A DNA stretch of 47,798 nt from an uncultured Pirellulaceae bacterium (GTDB taxonomy: Bacteria; Planctomycetota; Planctomycetia; Pirellulales; Pirellulaceae), in contig CALJOA010000001.1 of assembly GCA_937981585.1 (NCBI GenBank), positions 1-47,798 on the forward strand, given 5' to 3'. Below are positions 9,724-19,639 of the stretch, piece after piece; within the stretch, counting starts at the first letter, position 1; every line of letters begins with the position of its first letter. The notes beneath the pieces were generated by a model. It searched no databases. It was not told where the DNA came from and saw nothing but the letters and a program-made list of their open reading frames with translations. Made by a program: the position numbers and the translations under genes.

Positions 9724-10290
9724 TCACGAACCGTAATACGGCCTTAACATCAGATAGCAAATCGGCCCGGTCACGGCAACGTAAAGCCAAACCGGGAAAA
9801 CCCACTTAGCCATCGTTCGGTGTTTTTGAAACTGATTCGTGAATCCATAAACCCAAGTTAGCAAAATAAACGGCAAACTGATCGCGGCCAGAATGATATG
9901 GGAAATTAGCAACGCGAAATAGCAAGCCTTCGCCGCGCCTTGGCCACCAAAGCGGGTTTCGGCTGTCGTAAAGTGATAGGCAACGTAGCAAGTCAAAAAC
10001 AAAGCCGAACATATCATCGCGGCTGATACCGCCAGTTTATGCAACCGAACGTTGTTGCGTCTGATCATCACCAGCGCTGCGACCAAAAAGATCGCCACCA
10101 GCGAATTCAGCGTCGCGTGAACAGCCGGTAGAAAACTTAAACTTACGCCGTCGGGCAAAGGTATCTTTTCCGGTCGGCGCATCGCACCAACCAAACCCCA
10201 AACCAAAACTGTCACGACCCAAACGCCGATAGCTAGTCGCTTTCCCAACCTGGGGTTGGGTTCCTGTTGTACGTACTGCTGTCGACTCAT
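9724..10290 (-). CDS. ctaM: DUF420 membrane protein, CtaM-like oxidase assembly factor
   Basis: A 188-residue integral membrane protein of the DUF420 family. Family members in Firmicutes (CtaM/YozB) are needed to mature the aa3-type oxidase. Five hydrophobic helices are visible, with conserved histidines in LPAVHATLNSLVAIFLVAAL, NNVRLHKLAVSAAM, CYVAYHFTTAETRFGG and ALLISHIILAAISLPFILLT. The start overlaps the stop of the sco gene by 4 bases (ATGA), so translation is coupled. Position in the cox operon supports a role in copper or heme insertion. The gene name is by family analogy. Confidence 0.88.
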   Translation of the reverse strand: MSRQQYVQQEPNPRLGKRLAIGVWVVTVLVWGLVGAMRRPEKIPLPDGVSLSFLPAVHATLNSLVAIFLVAALVMIRRNNVRLHKLAVSAAMICSALFLTCYVAYHFTTAETRFGGQGAAKACYFALLISHIILAAISLPFILLTWVYGFTNQFQKHRTMAKWVFPVWLYVAVTGPICYLMLRPYYGS

Positions 10291-11573
10291 TTCTCGTTCT
10301 GATCCTCTTTTGAATCGAAGTCTTCACTTTCAACATCCGAGGCTTCTTCAGGCTTGTTTCCGGGCGGATCAACCGGCCGCTGAGGTCGATCTTCGGCTCG
10401 CAGTTGCTCAACGAGCTTCAACATTTCGATTTCCTGTTTCGGTTCTTGCCAATCGAACTTGCCCCGCACCTCGCCCCAGCGATCAACGACGAACAGCTCC
10501 GACGAATGATGGCCGTCGCTGGCGTGGGCTTTGAAGAACTCGGCGCCGACTCGTTTGATCAAATGACTATCACCGGTGCAGAAAAGCCAATTCTCCTTGT
10601 CGGCGGTCAACGTTTTTGCAAAATCTCGCAAATGCGCCGCCGTGTCGTTGGTTGGGTCAGTCGTAATGCTCACAATCCTCGGCGAGTCTTCCCCCAAACG
10701 TTTCTGCAAATCACGGAGGTACTTGTTTTGTGCCTTACAGATACCCGGGCAGGAGCTGAAAAAGAAGTTTGCGATCCAGACTTCGCCGGTCAAGTCTCTG
10801 GAAAAGAACTTCTTTCCGCTTCGCTCAGTCAGATGGAAATCGCGAATCCAGGGGACGTTTGCTAGGTCGGGATGCTCATAGCCAGCCAGCACATTTCGCG
10901 TGTCTACCGAGCCATCAAGCGGCGGCTCGGTTTCGGCAGCGACTTGCTTCGAAACCTTGATGAATCGTTTCATGTCCGTCGGTTGGTCCCACTTGAAACG
11001 ATCCCGATAGCGTCCCCACTTATCGACCAGCAAAATGTTGTCGGTGTGTGTGTCGCGATCGACAACGACATTGAATGTGTGTTCGCCGATTTCTTTGAGC
11101 TTATACTTCTGGCCAGTCAGAAATGCCCAGCGATCAGGCTTGGCATCATAACCTTCGGCGTATTGGCTGAGTTTTTCCGGAGTATCGTTCTCCGGATCAA
11201 CCGTGATCGTCAAAAACTGAATATCGGTGTCTTTGAGAGCGCGATTGACTCGATCAAGCTCATTGTTCAACTCTCGGCAAAAGGTCGGGCAACTGGCAAA
11301 AAAGAAACTCACCACGAACGGCCTGCCAGTCAGATCGGCACTGTCAAACGATTCCCCGTTCTGGTCGGTCAGTTTAAACCGATCTACATCAGGCAGGTGC
11401 TTCCACGGAATCGACTCAATGACCGTACCGTGTGGCACCTCGCCATTGTTTTTGTGTACCTGCTTCGGATCGACTTTCGGTCCGTCGCCCGGATTACCAG
11501 GACGGTTGAGAAAATAAACGCCGAGACAGACCGCCACCAACGCCCAAAGTACTACGGGTATTGCATATCGCAT
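10287..11573 (-). CDS. Tandem SCO1/SenC-domain copper chaperone
   Basis: Sco proteins carry copper to the CuA centre of subunit II. This protein has one N-terminal membrane anchor and two complete SCO thioredoxin-like domains. The first has SFFFASCPTFC with a downstream histidine in VDRDTHTDNILLVD. The second has NFFFSSCPGIC with a histidine in ASDGHHSSELFVVDRWGEV. Both keep the CxxxC and His copper ligands. The acidic C-terminal tail (about 35 residues) is low complexity. I chose the ATG at 11573 (428 residues) over an in-frame TTG at 11585. Most Sco proteins have a single domain of about 200 residues, so this is a fusion or internal duplication. It lies between coxD and the ctaM-like gene. 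Confidence 0.93.
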   Translation of the reverse strand: MRYAIPVVLWALVAVCLGVYFLNRPGNPGDGPKVDPKQVHKNNGEVPHGTVIESIPWKHLPDVDRFKLTDQNGESFDSADLTGRPFVVSFFFASCPTFCRELNNELDRVNRALKDTDIQFLTITVDPENDTPEKLSQYAEGYDAKPDRWAFLTGQKYKLKEIGEHTFNVVVDRDTHTDNILLVDKWGRYRDRFKWDQPTDMKRFIKVSKQVAAETEPPLDGSVDTRNVLAGYEHPDLANVPWIRDFHLTERSGKKFFSRDLTGEVWIANFFFSSCPGICKAQNKYLRDLQKRLGEDSPRIVSITTDPTNDTAAHLRDFAKTLTADKENWLFCTGDSHLIKRVGAEFFKAHASDGHHSSELFVVDRWGEVRGKFDWQEPKQEIEMLKLVEQLRAEDRPQRPVDPPGNKPEEASDVESEDFDSKEDQNEK

Positions 11574-11653
11574 TTTGACTCTCAAAACTTCTCAGGTTAA
11601 AGACCGCAACTAGGGTACCGGAATTGAGGCGCGGACGATGTAGATTTGTTAGA

Positions 11654-12091
11654 TCAGTGCTTCGACGACTCGGAAGATGGCTCAGAGGAAGCTTCAACGG
11701 CTTGTGCTTCGGCGGAAACAACTTCGGCGACCGGCGCGTTAATCCGGCGCTCATTGGAATAGGTTTGAGTTCGAAATCCAACGTCCGGCACCAGCAACAT
11801 TACCAACAGCACGCCCATGATGAATGCAGGCACGGTCAGCACGTACTTCCACATCTTCTCCCACCAAAGGTGCATGAAGAACAGGATCACCAACAACGCT
11901 TTCGCGGCCGAGACCGCCATCATCGAACCCCAACCGACGTAACGATTGTCCATCAGATGGGAATTGGCAATCCAGAACGACAGCGCCGTCAGCACGCAAA
12001 GCATCACAAAGACAGTAATGAAAACGCCGGTGTGGCTTCCATGATGACTGTCGTCATGAGTTTCGTGTTGAGTAGGTTGCGACTGATTCAT
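11654..12091 (-). CDS. coxD: caa3-type cytochrome oxidase subunit IV
   Basis: A 145-residue membrane protein with the prokaryotic COX4 layout. A His-rich soluble N-terminus (residues 1-20) is followed by three helices: FITVFVMLCVLTALSFWIAN, MMAVSAAKALLVILFFMHLW and VLTVPAFIMGVLLVMLLVPD. The AAKALLVILFFMHLWWEKMW signature is typical. The last 35 residues are an Ala/Ser/Glu tail not found in short family members. It starts 2 bases after the coxC stop. This small subunit stabilises the complex and has no cofactor. Confidence 0.9.
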   Translation of the reverse strand: MNQSQPTQHETHDDSHHGSHTGVFITVFVMLCVLTALSFWIANSHLMDNRYVGWGSMMAVSAAKALLVILFFMHLWWEKMWKYVLTVPAFIMGVLLVMLLVPDVGFRTQTYSNERRINAPVAEVVSAEAQAVEASSEPSSESSKH

Positions 12092-12093
12092 GA

Positions 12094-13446
12094 TTAAAAG
12101 AGGTAAAGCAATGGAAACAAAAAGATCCAGACGATATCAACAAAGTGCCAATACAAACCAACGTTCTCCAGAACGCCCGCACGGCGAACTCCCAGCCTCA
12201 TCGGCAACAGGATCAGGAACGCAACCAAGCCTCCAAGCACATGCAGCGCGTGGAAACCGGTTAGCAAAAAGTAGGTATTGGCCCAAGTGTTTCCGCTGGG
12301 AATCACCATCGGCAATCGCATGTGATAGTGCTCGTTGATACCGTGTTCGACAAAGCCAAACTGATCCATCGCGGCAACACGGTTTTGCAGGGGCAAAACA
12401 AGATCGGCCAGTCGGCTTGCCTCGGCCGCCGCGTCGGTCGACTCTTGCGTTAAGGACTCAAGCTGTGACCCAAGCTTAGATTCAAGTTTCTTTCTGGCTT
12501 CTTCATCCTCTTCATCGGCCGCTTTCTTGATCTTTTCATTCAAATCGTCGATTTGCTTTTGAAGATCAGTGACTTTTGCCTGAGCCGTTTTGGCATCCGA
12601 CTCTGTTGTGGCCAAGAGGGCTTTGGTTTCTTTGAGCTCATCCGCGAGGTGAGTCTCGACCCGCTCATTCTTGCCACGAGGATAAATTTGATGGGCAAGA
12701 CTTTCCAACGCCAACTCACGCTCAATTCGGCTTTCTGATTGGCCGACTTTCTTTTGCGTCCATTCGATAAGCCCAGAACGAATCAGCTCCAAACGCTCCG
12801 CCAGTTCGTCATCGTGGCCATGATGGCCGTCAGAATGATCGTGATCGGAACCAGGTTCTGATGGCTCGGTAGATTCCCCTGCATCACCCGAGCCGGCATC
12901 TCCTTCGCTTAATTCCTCCGCCAACAACAAGCTCAACTGCTCATCACAACTCGCCTTCGTCCCTGCCAGATAATTGATATCAGGTCGATCGTAGAGCAGG
13001 CTTCGCGGGGCAGCTGGATGGATCCCGTGGCTGAACTTCGAATTGTACTCATAGGCCTTGATACCCAGAAAAACGCAGCCCAGAAGAAACGTCAGCATCA
13101 ACCATTTTCTGGCTTTGTCGACGACATCCCGTTTGGCGGCTTCCATCGCAAACACGATCGTCACACTGGAACAGATCAAGACGAACGTGTTCAGCGCTCC
13201 CAGCCATTCCACAACTCGCACATCGTGAGGCGAAGGCCAGCTCCCCTGAGGCGCTCCAAATCGCAGCACAATGTAAGTTCCGATCAACGCGGTGAAAAAC
13301 ATGATCTCGGTTGAAAGAAACAGCCAGACGGCGAGCTTGCCTTTAGGAACCGGAACCGCAGGCTGGTACTGCAACTCAATGTGTCCGTGCGCACCGTGAC
13401 CTTCACCGTGGTCGGAATGATCAGTTGTATGGGACGTTGAAGTCAT
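12094..13446 (-). CDS. coxC: Cytochrome c oxidase subunit III with large coiled-coil insertion
   Basis: The N-terminal part ([20 protein letters not shown] to the helix around [20 protein letters not shown] and [20 protein letters not shown]) and the C-terminal part ([20 protein letters not shown] to [20 protein letters not shown]) are normal COX3. Between them, at about residues 135-355, sits an extra 220-residue soluble segment. It has an acidic, His-rich patch ([16 protein letters not shown]) and a long heptad coiled coil (about 240-340). Typical five-helix subunit III has about 200 residues and this one has 450. The N-terminus is also His-rich. The insertion leaves the membrane helices intact and would lie between helices 3 and 4. 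The reading frame is continuous, so this is not an assembly join. Confidence 0.92.
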
Positions 13447-13516: not shown

Positions 13517-14455
13517 TTAAGTCAAACAAGCCACCAACAGCAGGATCATGTACAGCGGCAAATAAAGCAGCGAAACTCTCAGCAACTTTCGAGCGATCGG
13601 CTCGGTTCGCGATCCGTTGAATGCGATCGCCGCTTTCAAGTAAAACAACCCCAGCAAGACCGCGAGAATTGAAAACACCCAGACGTGTCCCACCGTTCGC
13701 ATTGACATTACTGGCACGAGGCTGACTGCGATCAGCAACACGCCAGTAATAATTGCTTTTCGACCTGCTGCGGCGCCAGTTGGCTCGGTAACCGTCAACA
13801 TCTTCAAGCCACCGCTTTCATAGTCCTTACGGTACATCCAGGCGATCGCCATGAAGTGCGGAAACTGCCACAAAAACAGGACGCCGAAAAAAGCCCAACA
13901 GACCAACCCGACGCTGTGTGTCGCCGCCAGCGATCCCATCACGACCGGCATCGCACCAGCAACCGCTCCAATCTCGGTATTAAAATGTGTTTTCCGTTTG
14001 AGCGGGGTATAGATGAAGACGTACAGAATCCAATTCGCGACACCACACAAAGCGGTTTCCCAATTGACCAGCGCCAACAAAAATCCAACGCCAACACCAA
14101 ACGCAATCGCGCCGAACGTTGCGACCTCAGTCGCCGACAAACGCTGAGCCGGCAAGGGCCGCTGGGCAGTACGAGGCATCAGAAAATCTGAATAGCGTTC
14201 CAGGTACATGTTCATCGCGTTACCGCTGGCCGCGATCGCGAGCATTCCAACTAGCGCACCCAACAGCAACGTGAATGTCAGGGGCTCACTGGCTGGGCCG
14301 GTTGCTGTGCCAGCCGCAAGAAACGCCGCAGCGGCAAACGTGAACAGAACCATTACCGAAATTCGTAGCTTGGTCAGCTCCACATACGCCTGCACTCGCG
14401 ACTTTTCTTTCAAGTCGGCAGGCTGAGCGTCCTGACTGGTTGTGATCGTCGACAT
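13517..14455 (-). CDS. ctaB: Protoheme IX farnesyltransferase (heme O synthase)
   Basis: CtaB adds the farnesyl chain to protoheme to make heme O, the first step to heme A. This 312-residue multi-helix UbiA-family protein shows GNAMNMYLERYSDFLMPRTA followed by QRPLPAQRLS, the prenyl-diphosphate binding region, although the first Asp of the usual DxxxD is Glu here. The second family region is KRKTHFNTEIGAVAGAMPVV with FPHFMAIAWMYRKDYESGGL. Length is normal. The start lies 2 bases after the ctaA stop, so ctaA and ctaB are coupled. Confidence 0.95.
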   Translation of the reverse strand: MSTITTSQDAQPADLKEKSRVQAYVELTKLRISVMVLFTFAAAAFLAAGTATGPASEPLTFTLLLGALVGMLAIAASGNAMNMYLERYSDFLMPRTAQRPLPAQRLSATEVATFGAIAFGVGVGFLLALVNWETALCGVANWILYVFIYTPLKRKTHFNTEIGAVAGAMPVVMGSLAATHSVGLVCWAFFGVLFLWQFPHFMAIAWMYRKDYESGGLKMLTVTEPTGAAAGRKAIITGVLLIAVSLVPVMSMRTVGHVWVFSILAVLLGLFYLKAAIAFNGSRTEPIARKLLRVSLLYLPLYMILLLVACLT

Positions 14456-14457
14456 AC

Positions 14458-15627
14458 CTAACTCGATGTTAAGGGTTGAGGAGTTGGTTGAGGAATTTGT
14501 GGTGACAACTGAGATTCCTTTTCGTTGGAATCGAGCGAATCGTTCGCATTCTGATGGCTGCCGTTGAAAGACGCATCACCCTTCGAGTTTACGTGCTTGT
14601 CTTGCGCGGACTCAAATCCGGCATGAAATCGGGCGATTGGGCCTAGTGACCAACGGCATCGTAACATGTGAACTGTCCAGAAAGCCAAAATAAGCGAACC
14701 GACTGCAACGTGGGCAGTAACTATATTGCCTTGCAAAAACGTCTTTTCGCCGACCACAAACGTCGCCGCGAAACTTTGCTGAGCAAACCAAGCCGGCCAG
14801 CCATATTTCACCACCCAGGTTCCTACGCCCAGCATGACTTGCGCCAGCACCAACAGCATCAGAACATTGATCGAACCGCGAATCCCAATTCCCTTGAACC
14901 GGGGCAATCGACTAACAACCCACTGTGTGATCGTTCCAAGCAACAACAAAACTGCGACGGCGATATGCAAAACGACTATCAAACGAAAAACGTTTGGAGC
15001 CAAACTAACAGTGGTGTGCCGTAAAAAAGCCCCAACGACCAGTTGGCCAAAACTTGCAGCCAACAAAAACGTCGAAAGAAAAATCAGTCCCGAACCACGC
15101 ACGCGGCGAGCTTTCGAGTCGCTTTTTCGATCGCTAGATTGACGCCACCACCAGCGTGAAGTCACAACGATGAAGCCTGCAACCGACGCAAAGAAAGCCG
15201 GCCCCACACACCCGTGAACTTGAGCCAGGGTGCGCTCGTCGAACAACACTCGCAATCCGCCCAACAAACCTTGAGCGATCACCAAAAGCAGTAGCGCGAC
15301 CGAATAGAGTTTCACCCAGCGCCGCGGTTCGCTGCCCAGCGTGGCGACAACCAGCACGATTGCAACCAACCCCGCCAATGAACCAAGCAAACGGTGCCCA
15401 TGTTCGACAAACAAATCAAACGGACCAAAGAACCATGTTTCCATTGGATATAGAAACATGTTGTAACCATAAGTTCCCGGCCAATCGGGAACGGCCATCC
15501 CGGCATCATACGTCGTGACCAAACCTCCAACCCAAATCAACGGAAACACGACCGCAGCCAACACGATCGCCACTCGGTGCGGCAATCGACTTGGGATGTC
15601 GTTCGGATTTTTGAGTTTGGAGTTCAT
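14458..15627 (-). CDS. ctaA: Heme A synthase (COX15/CtaA family)
   Basis: CtaA oxidises heme O to heme A for the oxidase. The 389-residue protein has about eight membrane helices. Family features are GGLVTTYDAGMAVPDWPGTY, VEHGHRLLGSLAGLVAIVLV (heme-ligand His pair), TLAQVHGCVGPAFFA and VVLHIAVAVLLLLG, plus NIVTAHVAVGSLILAFWTVH. All four heme-site histidine segments are present. The C-terminal 45 residues are a hydrophilic Ser/Asn/Gln-rich tail. It lies 51 bases after coxA and feeds the same enzyme. Confidence 0.94.
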   Translation of the reverse strand: MNSKLKNPNDIPSRLPHRVAIVLAAVVFPLIWVGGLVTTYDAGMAVPDWPGTYGYNMFLYPMETWFFGPFDLFVEHGHRLLGSLAGLVAIVLVVATLGSEPRRWVKLYSVALLLLVIAQGLLGGLRVLFDERTLAQVHGCVGPAFFASVAGFIVVTSRWWWRQSSDRKSDSKARRVRGSGLIFLSTFLLAASFGQLVVGAFLRHTTVSLAPNVFRLIVVLHIAVAVLLLLGTITQWVVSRLPRFKGIGIRGSINVLMLLVLAQVMLGVGTWVVKYGWPAWFAQQSFAATFVVGEKTFLQGNIVTAHVAVGSLILAFWTVHMLRCRWSLGPIARFHAGFESAQDKHVNSKGDASFNGSHQNANDSLDSNEKESQLSPQIPQPTPQPLTSS

Positions 15628-15678: not shown

Positions 15679-17436
15679 CTATTGATCCTTGGCTGCAGTC
15701 GGTTGTGTTTGGGGGAAGAAATCATCCTCGGTGTCAGGATGACTGTACTCGTACGGCCCGCGATAAACGTAAGGTTGAATATCAAAGTTACCGTGACCGG
15801 GAGGACTTGGAGCGGTCCACTCAAGCGTGTTTGAATTCCAGGGATTCCGGCCGGCTTTCTTTCCAAACATCATGCTTCCGAAAAAGTTAAGCACGAAAAT
15901 GATCTGCACGGCGCCCATTGCAAACGCGCAAATGGTCATGAATTGATTCAGCGGCAAAAGATCCCTCAACGACTCGTTGATGTACGGATCCGCAATCCGG
16001 CGCGGCATTCGGCTGAGGAAATGCATTGGGAAGAAAGTCCCGTTGAGGAAAATGAAAGTCAAAAAGAAATGGAGCTTTCCCATTTTCTCGCTCATCATTC
16101 GCCCGAACATTTTCGGATACCAAAAATAGATCGCACCAAATACACCCAGAACGCTACTTGCAAACAAAACGTAATGCAGATGCGCGACGATGTAATAGGT
16201 GTCATGGATGACGATATCAACCGGCGGGGCCGACATCACGATGCCAGACAGCCCGCCAATGACGAACATTGAAACGAAACCAATGCTGAACAACATCGAA
16301 GTCGTCAGGTGCAACCGTCCGCCCCAGAGCGTTCCGATCCAGTTGAAGACTTTCACGCCGCTTGGCAGCGCGATCAACATCGTTGAAACCATAAAACTCA
16401 TTGCCAGCGTGTGATTCATCCCTGAGATGAACATGTGATGACCCCAGACGATGAACCCCAGACCGGCGATCGACGTAATCGAGTAAACCATCGGCTTGTA
16501 TCCAAACAACGGCTTGCGTGAGAAACACGAGATCATGTCCGACACCATCCCCATCGCTGGGAGGATCATGATCTAAACCGCCGGATGCGAGTAGAACCAG
16601 AACAAGTGCTGCCAAAGCAAAACCTGACCGCCACCACTGGCAGCCACTGCGTTGTCCATCGCCAGGTTCTCGGGAAGGAAGAAACCGGTGTGCAAAACCC
16701 GATCCGAGAGCTGCATCAAAAGCGCGGCCGTCAGAACCGGCAACGCGAACGCCTGCATGATCGCCGTGATGAACATCCCCCAGATCGTCATCGGCATCCG
16801 GAACATCGTCATCCCCGGAGCCCGCATTTGAATGATCGTCGTTAGATAATTGATCGAACCCATCATCGAAGAAATTCCGACGAAAACCATCGCCAAGAGC
16901 CACATCGATTGCGCGTCCCCATTGAAGACACTAAGCGGTGGATAAGAAGTCCATCCAGCCGCCGCTCCATAGCCGGGCATGAAGAAGCTGATGATGATGC
17001 ACGCGAACGCTGGCCACATGAACCAGTAGCTCAACATATTAAGCCGAGGAAACGCCATATCCTCGGCGCCAATCATCAACGGAATCAAGTAGTTACCAAA
17101 CGCTCCGGCCAACACCGGGATGATCACAAAAAAGATCATGATCGTCGCATGCATCGTAAAGAGCATCGTGTAAAACTCAGGCGAGATCTGTCCACCCGAA
17201 TCAGCGAATAACGCTTGTCCAACAATCGGCATGTCGGTCCACGGCCACGCCAACTGCCAGCGAACGCCAAGCGCCAACAAACCACCGACAAAAAACCAGA
17301 TCAACGACGAGAACAGGAACTGCAAGCCAATGATCTTGTGATCGGTGGCAAACACGTACGTAAAAATGAAACGGGAAATGACATTCCCCTTCCGTTTTCC
17401 GTGTCCCAAATTTTCAGCAGTTGCCTGAGCCATCAT
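15679..17436 (-). CDS. coxA: Cytochrome c oxidase subunit I, A2-type, interrupted by an in-frame amber codon
   Basis: Subunit I holds the heme a and heme a3-CuB centres and pumps protons. The frame runs 586 codons including the stop, with one internal TAG at codon 288 (16573-16575). The two halves (287 and 296 residues) are in the same frame. All metal ligands are present: H96 and H421 (heme a), H284, H333 and H334 (CuB), H419 (heme a3). The K-channel lysine K362 and an Asp at D126 in the D-channel region are also seen. The motif FYSHPAV-stop-IMILP replaces the usual HPEVY, so the stop falls on the catalytic tyrosine. The YS pair before HP marks the A2 subtype. Start overlaps coxB by ATGA. 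If the stop is real, the protein is inactive unless read through. Confidence 0.92.
16573..16575 (-). other. In-frame amber codon at the catalytic tyrosine of coxA
   Basis: On the minus strand the codons read CAT CCG GCG GTT TAG ATC ATG ATC (H P A V stop I M I). In every well-studied oxidase of this type the stop position is a Tyr covalently linked to the CuB histidine four residues earlier. TAG differs by one base from either Tyr codon. TAG also ends several other genes in this window, so general reassignment is unlikely. It may be a sequencing error, a recent nonsense mutation or a recoding site. Confidence 0.95.
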
Positions 17437-18356
17437 TTCTCAATCTGATTTGTTTGTAATTCCAGAGCCCCAGCTTCCGACATCGCCACCTTGCTGTTGG
17501 CCTCTTCGGTCTTCGCCATCGCAACATCTGGTTCTGATTCTTCGGGCTCTTTGAACTTGGGCGAGTAAGCCGATTGTTGCTCGGCCAACCATGCTTCGAA
17601 CGTCGGTCGGTCGACCAGCTTCATATCGGCGACCATTTTGTAATGGCCCCAGCCACAAAGTTCAGTACATAGAATCTCGATTTTGTCATCAAGCCCTGTT
17701 TCCTGATTGGAATTGAACCACGAGAACTGAGTCATTCCCGGCACGATATCCTGCTTCAGCCGAAGCTCCGGCACAAAGAAGCTGTGGATCACATCCCGAG
17801 ATTCCAACTGCAACACAATGTCTTCGCCCGCAGGTAGTACCAGCAAGTTCTCGATGTAAATGTCGTCTTGAGTTTCAACGACCCCGTCGGCCCCCGCATA
17901 GTGGAACTCCCAACCGAAACGCTTGGCTTTGACCATCACCATCGGCGGGACCAACGTCGTCTCGCCGTTGACCTCAACAACCGGCCGCTCCATTTTGTTT
18001 TCCGTCCAAGACTTCATTTGAAAGAAAGCCAGGAATACCAAAATGATCGCCGGTATCAACGTCCAAATCACTTCCAACAGCGTATTGTGATGAAAGTAAG
18101 CCGCCTTTTTCCTGTCGTCACCGCGATGGTCAAATTTCCAAATCGCCCACCCGATTGCCAGTCCGGTGCCCAGCAAAATCACAGACGAGAGAAGGTGGAT
18201 TCCGTTGAACAACCGGTCAATCGAATCGCCCGCAACTGAGAACGACTGCGGAAGCCAAGCGTGCGTCAACGGCCAAATCCCAAACATTGCCATCAAAAAG
18301 GTGACGACACCCAGAATCGGTACACAGAAAAACAGGATGCTCCAGAATCGGTTCAT
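17433..18356 (-). CDS. coxB: Cytochrome c oxidase subunit II
   Basis: Subunit II receives electrons from cytochrome c through its binuclear CuA centre. The 307-residue protein has two N-terminal helices (about 8-30 and 53-73) plus the helix near 93-113. The periplasmic cupredoxin domain carries complete CuA ligands: H191 in DVIHSFFVPE, then C230, E232, C234, H238 and M241 in ILCTELCGWGHYKM. The aromatic electron-entry region is visible as KRFGWEFHYAGADGVV. The C-terminal 50 residues are a Glu/Ser-rich tail without a fused heme domain; the adjacent diheme lipoprotein may serve instead. Both ends overlap neighbours by ATGA. Confidence 0.96.
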   Translation of the reverse strand: MNRFWSILFFCVPILGVVTFLMAMFGIWPLTHAWLPQSFSVAGDSIDRLFNGIHLLSSVILLGTGLAIGWAIWKFDHRGDDRKKAAYFHHNTLLEVIWTLIPAIILVFLAFFQMKSWTENKMERPVVEVNGETTLVPPMVMVKAKRFGWEFHYAGADGVVETQDDIYIENLLVLPAGEDIVLQLESRDVIHSFFVPELRLKQDIVPGMTQFSWFNSNQETGLDDKIEILCTELCGWGHYKMVADMKLVDRPTFEAWLAEQQSAYSPKFKEPEESEPDVAMAKTEEANSKVAMSEAGALELQTNQIEK

Positions 18357-19639
18357 CGATTTGAGATCGCCTCGTCGTTAACGGGAAGCTCAACTCGATC
18401 ACTCAAATTCTCAAACGGAAGCGACTTGACGTAAGCAACGATCTTCCAAATCTCATCCGACGTTAAAGCCGAAGAAGCCGGCATAGGCGTGCCTTCGATT
18501 CCATTGGCAACTCGCAAATAGATATCGTCAGGATGATCACCTCCGCGATAAACGGGAAGGTGAAGATTCCTTGGCATGATCGGACGAGGGGGCAGGGCAC
18601 CGACTGCAATAAAGTCTGCATAGGTTTCGGGATCGAACGGATCCACGTTGGCCGTCTTGATCCAGTCGTTGGTCCAGTCGTCAAAGTTACCAAGCTGTCC
18701 GTCGCCGGCTCCCGTTTGACCGTGACACTGCATGCAGTTGCCTTTGGAGAAAAACAACTCCCGCCCCTGAAGCACAAAATCTTCATGGCTCGCATGGGCA
18801 AGGTCAAACATTTCCGGCGCCGGCGGGACTTTGCTGACTTTTCGGTCCGGCTTGAGCCATCGCGGAATAATTCCCTCCTGCAACCCTTCTCCGATGAAGG
18901 TGTACATCTGGTCTTCGAATTCTTCGACATCATCGTCCGACGGTTTCTCACCGTCTTTGGTTTCAGATTTCAACGACAGGTCGATGATCGAGCCTCCGTC
19001 AAGGTTTGCGATTTCCGAAATCAGATATCGCTCATACTGACCACGGATCGTCAGGTACTTAACGTACTCAACCAACGCCTGTAGCTCTTCTTTTGGAAGC
19101 GTGCGAAACGACGGCATCGCGGTGCCAGGAATTCCATTTTCCAGAATCGTCATCAAGTCATGGTCGGTCGGTGGCTGACGCAGTGGCGTTGATTTGAATT
19201 TATACTTCGAGAGCCGAAAATCTCGCGGATAGGGATTGAGCACCTCGGCCGTCGGGCCGGCGCCGTCTCCAGTCACGCCATGGCAATGGGCACAGTGCTC
19301 GCGGTAAAGGCCCTGATGCTCGCCTTCGATGCCGCTTTTGACCGCTCCGGCAGCAAGCTTGAGGTTATCAAGACCGATGACGTCGTGAGCCGGATCGTCT
19401 TCGCCAAGCAGGTAAGGAAACTTGGGCTCGTCCGGTGTCCCAAACAGCGTCGTCAAGATCGACCCGATCTCCTGCTTGTATCCTTCATCAAATTTGTCGT
19501 CACCGGAAAGGTGAAGCCGCTCCTGTTTAAGCCATTCAACCGAGTTGAAACGGAAGTTGGGCGGCGGCGATTTCTCGCATCCGGCAACTACAATAAGGCC
19601 GGCAAGCAAAAGCGCGAAATGGAGGGGCTTGGAAAACAA
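18353..19639 (-). CDS. Diheme cytochrome c lipoprotein, electron donor to the oxidase
   Basis: A lipoprotein signal peptide with lipobox LIVVAGC (Cys21) is followed by two cytochrome c domains. Heme sites are CAHCH at 116-120 and CMQCH at 302-306. The axial methionines are likely in GIPGTAMPSF (about 175) and GIEGTPMPAS near the C-terminus. About 100 residues without a known domain separate the two hemes. The start is TTG at 19639: a TAG lies 10 codons upstream and no better start codon is available. It is the first gene of the oxidase operon and overlaps coxB by ATGA. It probably passes electrons to the CuA site of subunit II, in place of a fused cytochrome domain. Confidence 0.92.
   Translation of the reverse strand: MFSKPLHFALLLAGLIVVAGCEKSPPPNFRFNSVEWLKQERLHLSGDDKFDEGYKQEIGSILTTLFGTPDEPKFPYLLGEDDPAHDVIGLDNLKLAAGAVKSGIEGEHQGLYREHCAHCHGVTGDGAGPTAEVLNPYPRDFRLSKYKFKSTPLRQPPTDHDLMTILENGIPGTAMPSFRTLPKEELQALVEYVKYLTIRGQYERYLISEIANLDGGSIIDLSLKSETKDGEKPSDDDVEEFEDQMYTFIGEGLQEGIIPRWLKPDRKVSKVPPAPEMFDLAHASHEDFVLQGRELFFSKGNCMQCHGQTGAGDGQLGNFDDWTNDWIKTANVDPFDPETYADFIAVGALPPRPIMPRNLHLPVYRGGDHPDDIYLRVANGIEGTPMPASSALTSDEIWKIVAYVKSLPFENLSDRVELPVNDEAISNR

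Follow-up and report, generated by a model that had tools for sequence, protein, structure and literature searches.

How should a lone amber codon be read when it falls on the catalytic tyrosine of a respiratory oxidase, inside a gene that otherwise looks whole? The question is raised by coxA in a 47,798-nucleotide stretch of DNA from an uncultured Pirellulaceae bacterium (hereafter the window), which is contig C1 of a 3.5-Mb MAG of 158 contigs, 80% complete. A sequence-only reading of the window had reported this TAG at 16573-16575 and, judging that a random mutation would hardly hit exactly that codon, had leaned towards site-specific readthrough or recoding, with a sequence error or a strain-level pseudogene named as further options. 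It is these further options that fit best. With high confidence, one changed base has created the stop in an A2-type coxA that is intact in all other respects, either through a consensus or assembly error or by a very recent mutation, and most likely it represents no new kind of genetic recoding.

The coxA gene and its operon

The gene belongs to an oxidase operon on the minus strand (19639-9724), whose members are given below in the order of transcription, together with the parts of coxA.

18353-19639, minus strand: cytochrome c protein (PF13442, PF00034)
17433-18356, minus strand: coxB, subunit II (PF02790, PF00116)
15679-17436, minus strand: coxA, A2-type heme-copper oxidase subunit I with one TAG inside (PF00115 match, translation, NCBIfam match for each half)
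16576-17436, minus strand: 5' part of coxA, 287 codons ahead of the stop (open frame)
16573-16575, minus strand: in-frame TAG, codon 288, cross-link tyrosine position (translation and comparison with relatives)
15679-16569, minus strand: 3' part of coxA, 296-aa frame (open frame, NCBIfam match)
14458-15627, minus strand: COX15/CtaA-like gene (PF02628)
13517-14455, minus strand: UbiA-family gene (PF01040), from its place probably heme O synthase
12094-13446, minus strand: subunit III (PF00510)
11654-12091, minus strand: subunit IV (PF03626)
10287-11585, minus strand: SCO1/SenC-like gene (PF02630)
9724-10290, minus strand: DUF420 gene (PF04238)

In the syntenic stretches of seven relatives the UbiA gene directly follows coxA, and the COX15/CtaA-like gene that lies between the two here (14458-15627) is unmatched.

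The coxA frame opens with an ATG at 17436 and closes with a stop whose end lies at 15679; its lone internal stop is the TAG at 16575-16573. Membership of the COX1 family is given by a PF00115 score of 492 bits (cut-off 34.8), with the TAG inside the match, while the NCBIfam subunit I model TIGR02891 scores 611.7 bits on the read-through protein, under its curated cut-off of 670.75. The two halves align to adjoining stretches of that model (positions 1-237 and 240-503), and the frame is indeed continuous on both sides of the stop, as the sequence-only reading had it. The same holds for the claim that the metal ligands and the K-channel lysine are all present: the motifs are intact, with His96, His284, His333/334, His419 and His421 as metal ligands and Lys362 in the K channel. 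The motif at the stop reads YSHPAV*IMILP, where the asterisk at codon 288 occupies the position of the helix-VI cross-link tyrosine.

In A-type enzymes this tyrosine is bonded to a CuB-ligand histidine, and the definition of the A2 type includes a tyrosine in place of the D-channel glutamate (PMC3084760). The window's coxA has the A2 trait (FYSHPAV at 281-287) and, as sequenced, lacks the A-type one, having TAG in its place. It shares with the A2-type subunit I of the Rhodothermus marinus caa3 oxidase the Tyr-Ser pair in the D-channel glutamate region, the ligand histidines and the K-channel lysine, and differs from it, as the sequence reads, in the stop at the cross-link tyrosine. According to a computational study, every cytochrome c oxidase conserves this residue, and proton pumping requires it (PMC8079940).

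Codon 288 in relatives and the age of the stop

By tblastn, an aligned residue was obtained at 112 of 112 loci, two of which are the window itself. At all 110 other loci (109 from relatives, some of whose genomes are present under two names, plus the genome's own second coxA) codon 288 is a tyrosine codon, TAC or TAT, which confirms that the TAG stands in place of the cross-link tyrosine. The named relatives are Mariniblastus sp., other Pirellulaceae and Planctomycete MAGs, the nearest at 86% identity; for the 5' part of coxA, identity to the closest relatives is 83-87%. The comparison with close relatives, which had been proposed as a check, thus returned a normal tyrosine codon at 109 of 109 loci, and the conserved stop that would mark programmed recoding was found at none of them. 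More widely, a degenerate pattern of uncalibrated sensitivity detected a TAR stop at the coxA motif in one of 392 genomes of the phylum, the window's own. Among the window genes matched in the syntenic stretches of the seven relatives, only coxA has an internal stop in its own frame. Where other same-strand gene matches contain a stop, it comes shortly before the start codon, and all further stops belong to shadow frames.

Is the gene then decaying? In an alignment of 104 distinct proteins from 110 coding sequences, window included, coxA departs from 1 of 186 columns when conservation of 97% or more is required, that one being the stop itself, and from 3 of 268 at the 90% level. An old pseudogene is therefore rejected, the other 185 columns being unchanged. 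Nonsynonymous differences to eight close relatives are similar in the two halves (0.083-0.100 versus 0.084-0.096 per site); synonymous sites are near or at saturation against the same relatives, so that dN/dS is unable to date the stop. As a rough estimate from the sequence, some 400 nonsynonymous sites without further change would limit any neutral period to less than about 0.7% divergence. Since no further damage is seen, the stop must be an artefact, very young, or decoded.

A probable accident of sequencing or a recent mutation

With a tyrosine codon assumed at 288, there are 185 single-base routes to a stop in coxA, of which 2 fall at codon 288 (1.1%) and 42 at all tyrosine codons together. 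The premise that chance would rarely strike this codon thus stands numerically, and a precise catalytic hit, at about 1 in 90 random nonsense routes, does count against an accident; the premise loses its force in that such a hit is unlikely if the codon is named beforehand, yet this codon was picked out after the fact. Lone stops also occur elsewhere. A survey of COX1 across 296 genomes of the order gave at least 150 matches, and of the 150 listed, which do not include the window's own, one has an internal stop. This is a MAG of another family (G080), where coxA (frame 31-1767 of L174, on G080:C40) has a single in-frame TAG at the equivalent of window residue 386, a non-ligand position, and which also has an unbroken near copy of the gene. 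Multiplying 1 in 150 matches listed by 2 in 185 suggests, very roughly, a stop at exactly codon 288 once per 14,000 such genes, a rate at which it would be unsurprising to meet a few cases in the collection of 97,973 genomes.

Low coverage is known to produce spurious internal stops (PMC11017572). The stop in coxA is similar to those described there, being isolated in an otherwise intact conserved gene, and is a candidate for a further case. Against such an origin, stops are not frequent in the assembly, with none found within 13 sulfatase and 43 ABC-transporter matches. A systematic Illumina error was also considered, as GGCGGT precedes the TAG site and errors after GGC or GGT have been described; the candidate was dropped because the same source finds such short motifs to be poor predictors of errors (PMC3622629). 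For a real mutation there is a likeness in ccoP of Neisseria meningitidis, where a single-base change to TAG also affects an oxidase component; there, however, the nonsense codon is a species marker and costs the protein a C-terminal domain, whereas the coxA TAG was seen a single time and would cost subunit I its catalytic core (PMC2924362).

The tyrosine at every other locus, the single stop-bearing genome among the 392 of the phylum, the absence of any other change at the highly conserved columns and the confinement of the damage to coxA in the syntenic comparison all speak for a nonsense change of one of these two kinds, as do the RF1 gene and the ordinary use of TAG as a stop (see below), the stop at a different codon in G080 and the published effect of low coverage. 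The genome's second coxA, a search for which had been advised, adds to this: it lies on contig C27, is unbroken, keeps the cross-link tyrosine and has a coxB and a subunit III gene of its own beside it. The more likely option, and in our view a probable one, is a consensus or assembly error. That the sequenced strain truly carries a nonsense mutation of very recent date is a tentative second choice. If it is real, translation would end after 287 residues, the window's operon would presumably yield no active oxidase, and oxygen respiration would depend on the other oxidase operon, which lies on contig C27. Because that operon is intact, the loss would be survivable.

Could UAG be decoded?

Site-specific recoding would have a dedicated or suppressor tRNA read UAG as tyrosine or a modified residue, giving a full-length, active oxidase. 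The frame intact on either side of the TAG and the catalytic nature of the site speak for it, and recoding of TGA at a redox site does occur in the genus (see below). TAG is nonetheless an ordinary stop in this genome, as the sequence-only reading had noted for several genes: among stop-to-stop frames that reach 200 codons in 448 kb of the genome, shadow frames included, 115 out of 296 end in TAG, and the RF1 gene is present, above its model's cut-off. On these two grounds genome-wide amber reassignment is rejected. A second release-factor gene, matched by the same model below the cut-off, is probably RF2. Among the matches listed in the literature searched, none described an oxidase subunit I with an in-frame UAG, or a code change in Planctomycetes.

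The suggested search for an amber suppressor tRNA found no CUA anticodon among the 47 tRNA genes of this 80%-complete MAG, tRNA-Cys being likewise missing. This is weak evidence against decoding, because an incomplete MAG with neither tRNA-Cys nor a tRNA-Sec above the cut-off could be missing such a tRNA too. The tRNA genes include two dense arrays, one of 11 genes (G000:C19:144-1896) and one of 10 (G000:C143:10242-11630), several of which are extra to copies elsewhere in the genome. Pyrrolysine decoding is rejected, as PylS exceeded its cut-off in 0 of 30 genomes, this one included. No recoding hairpin was found in the 83 nt from the stop, which fold no better than shuffled RNA (z -0.74). With the TAG in none of the compared relatives, no decoding machinery found, no RNA fold beyond shuffles and a related MAG bearing its lone TAG at another coxA codon, the earlier leaning towards recoding is not borne out, and we consider such recoding very improbable. 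In its most specific form, one of the two oxidases would depend on a rare amber-decoding tRNA that the incomplete assembly lacks and that supplies the tyrosine, or a modified tyrosine, of the cross-link; this would be more improbable still.

What, then, does real recoding look like in this genus? A search for single stops with an open frame of 150 codons or more on each side yielded 29 pairs of frames, of which 7 are separated by TAG. Judged by eye only, the protein continues past the stop in two pairs: coxA, and, on contig C29, a thioredoxin-like protein with W-TGA-GPC (L195 17476-15512, minus strand, that is G000:C29:35512-37476; TGA at L195 16639-16637). The latter is likely a selenoprotein, and selenoproteins in Planctomycetes have already been published (PMC4807772). 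The TGA at W*xPC recurs in 10 of 10 homologous loci fetched (its own and those of nine other genomes). Some weaker homologues are without a stop and others gave rows with TAG or TAA; in the five TAG-row homologues fetched, the TAG is the protein's end and not its active site. A second match with one TGA lies at G000:C13:5384-6448. No match to tRNA-Sec reached the cut-off in this MAG; it exceeds 60 bits in 22 of 24 other genomes of the genus, and ARAGORN named it in 5 of 5 relatives' loci scanned. The coxA TAG resembles selenocysteine recoding in having a stop codon where a catalytic redox residue belongs, but the TGA recurs in relatives and its cognate tRNA occurs in the genus, and the coxA TAG has neither. 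On comparison of sequences, true recoding in the genus, with its TGA kept across loci, looks unlike the coxA TAG.

Two further readings take the stop as real and are weaker again. Near-cognate reading of UAG is a known general phenomenon, and tRNA-Tyr is present, so low-level decoding by it or by another near-cognate tRNA might give some full-length active enzyme; no sequence feature favours leakage, however, the yield would be low and a second oxidase exists, which makes this reading highly unlikely. Least credible of all are two polypeptides that assemble, the second being the 296-aa frame from the ATG at 16569, two codons past the TAG, since that ATG is the motif Met of unbroken relatives and so was not gained for a restart, and since the pair would lack the conserved tyrosine that the computational study describes as required for proton pumping (PMC8079940).

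Amber decoding at the cross-link tyrosine, if true, would give UAG a new natural role in respiration; no finding favours it. The lesson of the window's coxA is rather one of caution, an isolated stop on a catalytic codon being no evidence of recoding. The same genome offers the contrast, for the TGA at its thioredoxin-like active site, common to relatives, is what recoding looks like when seen by comparison.
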